A stretch of DNA of 64,000 bases from Aliarcobacter thereius LMG 24486 (GTDB taxonomy: Bacteria > Campylobacterota > Campylobacteria > Campylobacterales > Arcobacteraceae). A program made the position numbers and the translations under genes. The stretch is taken from assembly GCF_004214815.1 (NCBI RefSeq), contig NZ_CP035926.1, positions 992,001 through 1,056,000 of the forward strand, given 5' to 3'. Positions 19,448 through 23,694 of the stretch are shown one piece after another; the first letter of the stretch is position 1; every line of letters begins with the position of its first letter. The notes beneath the pieces were generated by a model. That model did not search any database. It was given only the letters and a program-made list of their open reading frames with translations, and was not told the origin of the DNA.

Positions 19448-20548
19448 TTAATTTTTCTTAATATTATACTTATTCAAATACCACTCAATAGTTTTAACTA
19501 TCCCACTATCAAAGTTTTCATCTGCTTTCCAACCTAACTCTTGTTCTAGTTTTGTAGCATCTATTGCATATCTTCTATCATGCCCTGCTCGGTCTTCTAC
19601 GAATGTGATTAATTCTTTATAGCTTTTTATATTTGGAACTGAGGATTTATCCTCAGCTTTTTGATTTGCAGGGACTGAAGTCCCTGTTCCAAGTGGTACT
19701 TCTTTATCCAATATCTCACAAATTCTATTTACTATTTGAAGATTTGTTCTCTCATTTCTTCCACCAATATTATATGTATCTCCAGTTTTTCCATTATGGA
19801 AAACCAGATCTATACCTTTACAATGGTCAAGTACATACAACCAATCTCTTATATTTTTTCCATCCCCATAAATTGGAATTGGATTTCCTAAAAGAGCATT
19901 TCTAATAATTGTAGGAATTAATTTTTCATCATGTTGTTTTGGACCATAGTTATTTGAGCAGTTTGTAATAACTGTATTTAATCCATATGTTTCATTATAT
20001 GCCCTTATTATCATATCACTTGAAGCTTTAGAAGCTGAGTATGGAGAGTTTGGAGCATATGGTGTTTTTTCAGTAAACAGATCATTTGGATCAAGACTAA
20101 GTGTTCCATATACTTCATCTGTACTTATATGATGAAATCTACAATCTTTATATTCTTTTTTATAAGTAAATGGTTTCTCCATCCAATATTTATAAGCAAC
20201 ATCAATCAAAGTAAATGTTCCATTTACATTTGTTTGCACAAACACTCCTGGATTTTTAATACTATTATCTACATGAGATTCAGCTGCAAAGTGAATAACA
20301 CCTTTTATATCATATTCATTAAATATAAATTCAACTAATTCTCTATTACAGATATCACCTTTTATAAATTTATAGCGAGGATTTGTTTCACACTCTTTTA
20401 GATTTTCTAAATCTCCTGCATATGTTAAAAGGTCTAGGTTTACAAGATTATAGTTTGGATATTTATCTAAAAAATATGGCACAAAGTTTGAACCTATAAA
20501 TCCTGCTGTTCCTGTTACAAGTATTGTTTTATTATTATTGTTGAACAT
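19448..20548 (-). CDS. rfbB: dTDP-glucose 4,6-dehydratase with an in-frame palindromic insert
   Basis: RmlB makes dTDP-4-keto-6-deoxyglucose, step two of dTDP-rhamnose synthesis. The 366-residue protein has VTGTAGFIGSNF, HFAAESHVDNSI, HISTDEVYG, YSASKAS (YxxxK) and the DRAGHDRRYAID substrate region. Between VPL and KSYKELITF it carries about 20 extra residues (GTGTSVPANQ...SSVPNI) that ordinary RmlB proteins lack; they are encoded by a pair of palindromes at 19635-19690. The insert lies in a surface loop near the C-terminal domain, so activity may be kept. It starts two bases after the KilA-N gene stop in transcript order. Confidence 0.94.
   Translation of the reverse strand: MFNNNNKTILVTGTAGFIGSNFVPYFLDKYPNYNLVNLDLLTYAGDLENLKECETNPRYKFIKGDICNRELVEFIFNEYDIKGVIHFAAESHVDNSIKNPGVFVQTNVNGTFTLIDVAYKYWMEKPFTYKKEYKDCRFHHISTDEVYGTLSLDPNDLFTEKTPYAPNSPYSASKASSDMIIRAYNETYGLNTVITNCSNNYGPKQHDEKLIPTIIRNALLGNPIPIYGDGKNIRDWLYVLDHCKGIDLVFHNGKTGDTYNIGGRNERTNLQIVNRICEILDKEVPLGTGTSVPANQKAEDKSSVPNIKSYKELITFVEDRAGHDRRYAIDATKLEQELGWKADENFDSGIVKTIEWYLNKYNIKKN
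19635..19690. repeat. REP/BIME-like pair of inverted palindromes inserted inside rfbB
   Basis: Two similar 23-bp units face each other around a 10-bp spacer. Each unit starts with GGAAC and then forms a perfect hairpin: CTGAGGAT/ATCCTCAG at 19639-19656 and CAGGGACT/AGTCCCTG at 19669-19686. The outer ends GGAAC (19635-19639) and GTTCC (19686-19690) are inverted. The arrangement, a short fixed head plus a hairpin in two opposed copies, is like REP/BIME elements. It is translated in frame as extra residues of RfbB. No second copy or transposase was seen in this window. Confidence 0.75.
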
Positions 20549-22803: not shown

Positions 22804-23694
22804 TTATTTCATCTTTTTTGCTTGATTTGCTCTTGATATTAAATATTGACCATATTGATTTTTCTTTAAAGGTTCAGCTAGTTCAAGAAGTTTTTCTTTT
22901 GTTATATATCCCATTTCATATGCTATCTCTTCAAGACAAGCTACTTTTAAAGATTGTCTATTTTCAATTGTTTGAATAAATGATGATGCTTCAAGTAAAC
23001 TTTCATGAGTTCCTGTATCAAGCCAAGCATATCCTCTTCCCATTAGTTCTACTTTTAATCTATTTTCATTTAGATAATCTTGATTTAAAGTAGTGATTTC
23101 AAGTTCACCACGATCACTTGGTTTTACATTTTTAGCTTTTTTAACTACATCATTTGGATAAAAATACAATCCTACAACAGCATAATTTGATTTAGGATTT
23201 TTTGGTTTCTCTTCAATAGATATTACATCACCATTTTCATTAAACTCTGCAACCCCATATCTTTCAGGATCTTTTACATAATATCCAAATACTGTTGCTT
23301 TGTTTTCATCTTTAATATTTTTTATACTTTGAGATAAAAGCTTTGTTAATCCATGACCATAAAATATATTATCACCTAAAACCAAACAAGCATCATCTCC
23401 ATCTAAAAACTCTTCTCCTAGAATAAATGCTTGTGCTAATCCATCTGGATTTGCTTGAACAACATATTCAAATCTCATTCCAAGTTCACTTCCATCTCCT
23501 AAAAGATTTATAAAACTTTGTTGATCTTGTGGTGTTGTTATAATAAGAACTTCTTTAATTCCTGCTAGCATTAAAACGGAAAGTGGATAATATATCATAG
23601 GTTTATCATATATTGGAACTAATTATTTACTTACACCTTTTGTGATTGGATAAAGCCTTGTTCCGCTTCCTCCTGCTAATATTATGCCTTTCAT
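22804..23694 (-). pseudogene. rfbA: Glucose-1-phosphate thymidylyltransferase interrupted by an in-frame stop at codon 24
   Basis: RmlA would make dTDP-glucose, the first step to dTDP-rhamnose. The frame starts at 23694 after AAAAGGTAAA with [19 protein letters not shown], and continues in the same frame to a normal C terminus, 296 codons in all. Codon 24 (23623-23625) is TAA where relatives have CAA for the glutamine of SKQLxPIYDKP. A restart at the ATG at 23598 would lose the GGSGTRL nucleotide-binding loop and should be inactive. All other motifs ([21 protein letters not shown]) are well preserved, so the loss is recent, or the base is a sequencing error. Confidence 0.9.

Follow-up and report, generated by a model that had tools for sequence, protein, structure and literature searches.

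Introduction

The closest described relatives of the element reported here are the REPINs and BIMEs, which a RAYT (TnpA_REP) moves in E. coli and Pseudomonas, among others. In the available part of PMC6006769, subclasses 2.6 and 3 of the TnpA_Y1 transposases are associated with REPs that lack GT[AG]G, and subclass 2.6 is described as mainly found in Bacteroidetes, 179 aa in length and carrying the motifs NH[LIV]H and YIH[QN]NP; YIxNNP is likewise found in subclass 2.4, whose REPs do have GT[AG]G. According to the accessible sections of PMC8266576, some RAYTs are less strict in recognising GTAG, and a TTTA loop occurs in one natural REP. Palindromes of this kind are also translated. The part of PMC3733652 at hand describes GTAG and CGTC REP dimers within ORFs of several species, where they encode 20–30 residues, and one case at nearly the same site in two species, namely recB of two Xanthomonas. 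In Rickettsia, palindromic elements are translated in frame in many genes, and related elements occur in further species of that genus, as stated in the available part of PMC10969869.

The element described here was originally predicted as possibly the first of its class in Campylobacterota, which was too strong, as GTAG and CGTC REPs have already been reported in the campylobacterote Sulfurovum NBC37-1. Its supposed novelty stood in part: no description of a GGAAC-headed REP class was found in the open-access literature, supplements excluded, and the main text of RepRanger (PMC12306157) makes no mention of Arcobacter, Campylobacter or GGAA, but translated REPs outside Rickettsia have been published (GTAG, CGTC).

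The palindrome pair and its host gene

The window, i.e., the whole stretch of 64,000 nucleotides of Aliarcobacter thereius LMG 24486 that was analysed, belongs to a genome of one contig (1,915,080 bases; G000). The features of the locus, with their basis, are as follows.

19448..20548, minus strand: rfbB/rmlB, dTDP-glucose 4,6-dehydratase, 366 aa, the host gene (TIGR01181, AlphaFold model)
19631..19690, minus strand: codons 287–306, GTGTSVPANQKAEDKSSVPN, the insert residues (orthologue comparison, model)
19635..19690, no strand assigned: 56-bp palindrome pair (REPIN/BIME-like) of two inverted GGAAC-headed hairpins (sequence, fold, covariance model)
19635–19639: GGAAC head (sequence)
19640–19655: first 16-nt hairpin (sequence)
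19656..19669, no strand assigned: 14-nt linker, A/T-rich, with GC at both inner ends (sequence)
19670–19685: second 16-nt hairpin (sequence)
19686–19690: GTTCC end (sequence)
19635..19657, plus strand: unit A, GGAAC + TGAGGATTTATCCTCA + GC (sequence, covariance model match)
19668..19690, minus strand: unit B, GGAAC + AGGGACTTCAGTCCCT + GC (sequence, covariance model match)

The predicted limits of a REP/BIME-like pair lying in frame in rfbB (19635–19690) proved exact. Read head to tail, each unit is 23 nt long (GGAAC + 16 + GC) with a stem of 6–7 bp, units A and B lie in opposite orientation, and the coding (minus) strand of the element reads GGAAC-AGGGACTTCAGTCCCT-GCAAATCAAAAAGC-TGAGGATAAATCCTCA-GTTCC. 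The G+C content, which had been described as far above the surroundings, is indeed 46% against 27% for the window. The two-hairpin fold gave a z of −5.7 as DNA and −6.2 as RNA, with none of 200 shuffled sequences folding equally well in either case, and no Rfam family came near its threshold for the element. A linker length of 14 nt recurs in other pairs, e.g., in one of Arcobacter vandammei (L095) lying outside any ORF of at least 100 aa.

The host protein scored 464 bits against TIGR01181 (cut-off 365), and its AlphaFold model resembled the solved RmlB structure 1keu with a TM of 0.82. The usual SDR motifs, GxxGxxG, TDE and YxxxK, are all intact in its sequence. The element adds about 20 amino acids in frame; in the model, residues 287–306 come after a helix whose last residue is 283 and before a short one that begins at 310, with a pLDDT below 50 at residues 290–305. 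As modeled, the insert apparently fills a disordered loop of RfbB.

It should also be noted that a KilA-N domain gene (PF04383; 20550–21371, minus strand) lies between rfbB and rfbD, and that an in-frame TAA stop interrupts rfbA (22804–23694, minus strand) at its codon 24, the ORF downstream of the stop being 264 aa long and without the N-terminal part. Relatives have rfbA-related open frames free of this stop. If the stop is real, the rhamnose pathway of the strain may be broken and rfbB may face relaxed selection.

The rfbB site across the genus

A search of 31 congeneric genomes yielded 26 orthologous rfbB loci for comparison, one per genome, second rfbB copies of some genomes being kept outside this set. 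As expected for residues normally absent from RmlB, 19 of the 26 orthologues are insert-free at codons 287–306, with 9–11 codons at the site, and the proposed alignment of orthologues thus did show relatives without the insert; the other seven have 21–29 codons. A GGAAC-type insert is present in four of these seven, i.e., in the window genome, in A. vandammei (G028) with the same 56-bp layout and different stems, in A. cryaerophilus gv. crypticus (G009) as a shorter, decayed copy and in Aliarcobacter vitoriensis (G030) as a divergent one. The same loop holds another hairpin, TCGTGACTTAATGTCACGA, in G005 (L020) and A/T-rich inserts in G007 (L025) and G001 (L036).

Between the window genome and G028, the stems show 12 differences, which make up six pairs, all six compensated, and there are two differences in the loops and two in the 14 positions of the linker. 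Four of the five broken pairs in the decayed G009 and G030 copies are still G-T and the fifth is not, with the register set by hand. The window genome and G009 have the second stem, the linker and the 3′ flank in common. GTTCC is found at the junction in 16 of the 19 insert-free sites, and the sequences flanking the insert are GTTCCA on both sides in G028 and GTACCA/GTTCCA in the window genome. A target duplication, which had been suggested as a check, is suggestive in rfbB of one species; it was not seen at galE or manC.

A phylogenetic tree of the RfbB proteins without the insert did not place the carriers. Trees of rfbB DNA (partial L042 left out) could place them with the 5′ part but not with the short 3′ part (165 columns). 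In the 5′ part, a clade of G000, G009 and G028 was rejected (p-AU 0.0025), as was a sister relationship of G000 and G009 (p-AU 0.0030), and the nearest to G000 were G005, G016 and G010. In the 3′ part, neither the clade of G000, G009 and G028 (p 0.26) nor that of G000, G005 and G016 (0.31) was rejected; this part gives the carrier clade no support, as its best tree places G000 beside G005 and G009 beside G028. Identity between G009 and G028 is 83% in the 5′ part and 92% in the 3′ part, and that between G000 and G016 is 86–96% over most of the gene, down to 79–82% at the 3′ end. Together with the linker, stem and flank common to G000 and G009, these sequence comparisons allow that filled 3′ ends may have been transferred or that an old insertion may have been lost in most lineages.

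The repeat family in Arcobacteraceae

Within the window genome, the pattern GGAAC-N31-61-GTTCC was found at 20 sites (eight in the reversed control), of which one was a hairpin pair by eye. A different pattern, the shorter one used below, gave two further matches in this genome, neither of them palindromic. For a wider search, a 23-nt covariance model (R1) was trained on an alignment (A2) of 50 units, 30 of them distinct, and run over 104 Arcobacteraceae genomes at E<=0.1 with stricter filters. The loci of A2 had been hand-picked from matches to a shorter pattern, leaving out two chance-like matches of G028/G025 and most matches of other genomes, and high scores of its units are by construction, as R1 was trained on them. 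This applies to units A and B, which scored 3.6e-8 and 8.4e-8 in their own genome and were both in the training set. They were the only matches in that genome at E<=0.1, a search in which the stricter filters can lose weak matches, and when the 64-kb window was searched with the filters switched off, the next-best match had an E of 0.23. The original prediction had made its reading depend on a second copy in the genome; only the one pair was found, and the family is rescued solely by sister species.

Among the 104 genomes, 38 units were detected in G028, 24 in G025, 22 in G009, 14 in G101, five in each of G030 and G027, with lower counts elsewhere; 26 genomes had any match, the weak singletons being likely due to chance. 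The shorter pattern gave 24 matches in G028, 18 in G025 and seven in G009 with no control match in each, and 112 matches against 16 in controls across the 31 genomes; its reversed control was zero in the family-bearing genomes G000, G009, G025 and G028. The reversed control of a longer pattern gave one match across all 104 genomes. All five free stem pairs were Watson-Crick in 51 of the 67 longer-pattern matches, against 0.26% expected; of the other 16, ten lie in family-bearing genomes (3–4 pairs) and six are single matches elsewhere (0–2 pairs). This is the unselected test of the stems, as the A2 loci were picked. In A2 itself, 95% of stem cells were paired (68.7% shuffled, 31–53% slid) and covariation was 0.786 against 0.291, with two of five covariation measures not above shuffles (double-sided changes, 5 vs. 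4.6; further pair types, 9 vs. 10.7). A chance palindrome is rejected by the stem-pair test, the covariation and the covariance model units of the sister genomes.

An inverted partner within 110 nt was present for 23 of 49 selected units, one of these (that of L094) being chance-like; T precedes at −2 in 45 of 49 and GC follows the unit in 44 of 49. The GGAAC head of the 50 aligned units was fixed by the search and the GGAA+1 of the partners by the scan. Many copies of the family lie in no ORF of at least 100 aa. The exact form GGAACNGGGACTTYAGTCCCNGC occurred in 22 stretches of a species-level collection from which the window's own genome was possibly left out: nine in Arcobacter/Aliarcobacter, nine in two Gammaproteobacteria MAGs, two in Deltaproteobacteria MAGs and one each in Saprospiraceae and Sulfurovum. 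Clustered GGAAC, GGAAG and GGAAA hairpins were observed in A. cryaerophilus G009 (L103, L236, L238), and G101 (genus g20; L239, L240), a genome without a Y1 match, has GGAAG-headed pairs of TGACAATTTATTGTCA with TGAGACTTCAGTCTCA.

Elements in other genes

Five GalE-like ORFs were obtained from 11 loci, with the off-type row L043 also aligned, and four of them (G016, G007, G005, G028) carry an in-frame element at one loop, some decayed, that of G011 being insert-free. For manC, nine of ten loci cover the site; two carry an in-frame element at one loop (a pair in G009, a single unit in G025) and seven are insert-free. At the insert-free galE and manC sites, neither GTTCC nor GGAAC was found in the junction stretch read. 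GTTCC as a general, required target was consequently not upheld, the match being found at rfbB but not at galE or manC.

In-frame elements were also found at the N-terminus of rfbD of G009, in an Eco57I/PglX-like methylase ORF of G028 (L096, G028:C45; 756 aa, partial) with two separate units, and in a 621-aa ORF without family with one unit. The sense unit is read GGA-ACN (frame 0) in rfbB, galE, manC, rfbD, the methylase ORF and the 621-aa ORF. Antisense units lie close to the beginning of a 344-aa ORF (L090) and of an FdhD ORF (L094) and within a 241-aa ORF (L103), and units in a different frame are found towards the end of an ORF6N ORF (L093) and close to the beginning of a 114-aa ORF (L108). 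All these ORFs were delimited from stop to stop within the stretches around the units, and some are spurious.

A candidate RAYT

The search for a RAYT proposed in the original prediction had a divided outcome: a RAYT was found amid such hairpins in other genera, but no Y1 transposase gene was found in the window genome. PF01797 had no match in G000, G028 (38 units, 99% complete), G009 (22 units) or G030, and matches in 36 of the 104 Arcobacteraceae genomes, six of them among the 31 in the genus of the window. A scan of 66 Y1 loci with equal flanks of about 1.5 kb on either side, some places being present twice, revealed 5–9 GGAA-headed TTYA hairpins at five loci, representing four places, one A/T-rich hairpin at two loci and none at 59. 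The four places hold Y1 frames of 182 aa (G078), 213 aa (G077), 195 aa (G102) and 182 aa (a Sulfurovum MAG), the first two with the motifs NHIH, FWQ and YIYNNP. The G078, G102 and Sulfurovum MAG proteins are 42–53% identical, and that of G077 is 96% identical to that of G078. The candidate proteins score above the cut-off of Y1_Tnp; for REP_Tyr_transpos, the G078, G102 and Sulfurovum MAG proteins score 61–79 bits, below the cut-off of 80. Against solved structures, the G078 protein matched TnpA proteins weakly, TnpA_REP 4er8 (E 0.019) among them.

A RAYT homologue of G041, 52% identical to the G078 protein, lacks such hairpins in its vicinity. Within the window's genus, only distant Y1 proteins were found (best G001, E 2.1e-8, 32% identity), none of them among GGAA-headed TTYA hairpins, and seven Y1 queries found no RAYT relic in 57 retrieved loci (best E 0.38). 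A 433-aa Y1-like ORF of G025 (L079, G025:C64) was rejected as the mover, a single, A/T-rich and chance-like GGAAA hairpin being nearby; its N-terminal Y1-like part seems by eye to be without the HUH motif and is followed by a long C-terminal extension. Also rejected were the 186-aa RAYTs of G006 (L082) and G029 (L081), that of G006 scoring above the REP_Tyr_transpos cut-off, which lie near different palindromes, TTCCCAAGCT..AGCTTGGGAA, and may belong to another REP system within the genus. The link to a RAYT, being one of co-location in other genera, is good as regards hairpins of this class, and for the copy in the window it is indirect.

Origin and persistence of the element

The element is probably a fossil REP pair (REPIN/BIME), non-autonomous and of a class headed by GGAAC instead of GTAG, that was moved by a RAYT now absent. 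It is suspected that this RAYT recognised the GGAAC foot and hairpin as single-stranded DNA and cut and rejoined the hairpin DNA to give copies at new sites, one of which would have been inserted in the codons of the RfbB loop. The consensus frame, GGA-ACN-NNG-NNT-TYA-NNC-NNW-GCN, offers few routes to a stop codon, and the copy may have survived because this frame is nearly stop-free and the loop tolerates some 20 apparently disordered residues. Stem pairing may have been kept more by arm-to-arm template switching or conversion than by functional selection; template switching between arms can reportedly maintain hairpins. As to the copies at the same site in several species, filled alleles may have been transferred, an old insertion may have been lost in most lineages, or insertion may have been repeated. 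As the window genome has neither a RAYT nor a further copy, the element is probably immobile.

The last of these routes, in which the loops of rfbB, galE and manC served independently as hotspots for different family members, e.g., through GTTCC as the complement of the head, is rather unlikely as the main explanation. The GTTCC at most insert-free rfbB junctions, the differing stems of G028 and G000 at one site, the other inserts found there in G005, G007 and G001 and the recurrence elsewhere of an A/T-rich 14-nt linker would all fit with it. However, the insert-free galE and manC junctions have neither GTTCC nor GGAAC, and the G000 and G009 copies look like one event because linker, second stem and 3′ flank are common to both. 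Even the match at rfbB may be a coincidence, since GTT CCA there encodes the common Val-Pro. A local palindrome, evolved in place or by chance in a variable loop, would explain why a single copy was found in the window genome, yet is hardly credible given that sister genomes have dozens of copies, unlinked and alike in head, loop, tail and pairing, and given reversed controls of one in 104 genomes (longer pattern) and zero in family-bearing genomes (shorter pattern).

Domestication, in which either an effect of the hairpins on stability or pausing of the rfb mRNA or selection on the 20 residues accounts for the paired stems and the recurring site, is improbable. Full compensation of the 12 changes between the G000 and G028 stems, the G-T pairs left in the decayed copies and the recurrence in three sugar-nucleotide genes could be expected from it, but the stems covary family-wide, with many copies outside ORFs of at least 100 aa, and pairing may be kept by template switching as above. 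Moreover, most rfbB orthologues are insert-free, the model places the residues in a loop of low confidence and Rfam has no family near threshold. Returning to the fossil REP pair, a wider reading is possible and, taken whole, doubtful: GGAAC REPINs of Campylobacterota may be protein-compatible, with a nearly stop-free frame, repeated translated loops in RfbB, GalE and ManC, all surface-sugar enzymes, and interspecies travel with exchanged genes long after loss of the RAYT.

The REP field gains a head class other than GTAG together with its candidate RAYT, and a small natural series of insert-free, filled, decayed and other-stem sites at the same codon position of several species. With this series, one can test how REPs come to be inserted and retained in coding DNA, and whether hairpin pairing is due to selection or to template switching.

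Comparison with known systems

With the REPINs and BIMEs the element has in common an unpaired 5′ head followed by a short-loop hairpin, the arrangement in inverted pairs and the occurrence of hairpins around a low-copy Y1 transposase gene, here in other genera. It differs in its head, which is GT[AG]G there and GGAAC (also GGAAA, GGAAG or GGAAT) here, and in its single pair in the window genome, REPINs being multicopy in their host and having a cognate RAYT, whereas no close RAYT was found in the window's genus. Subclasses 2.6 and 3, compared by description only from the available part of their source, are alike in having non-GTAG hairpins, a RAYT of about 180 aa, NH[IV]H and motifs of the YIxNNP type. 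The intragenic GTAG and CGTC REPs, as far as described in the part of PMC3733652 at hand, are also dimers in ORFs with TY-type loops, and are unlike in their GTAG or CGTC heads and mostly in phylum; CGTC REPs have a CGTC head, a stem of 8–9 bp and no transposase, against the GGAAC head and 6–7 bp here. The Rickettsia palindromic elements are likewise inserted in frame in unrelated ORFs and, going by the available part of their description, are set apart by length, at about 150 bp with a peptide of their own against 56 bp. Translated REPs being already known, what is new here is the GGAAC head class, its candidate RAYT and its recurrence in sugar-nucleotide enzymes.
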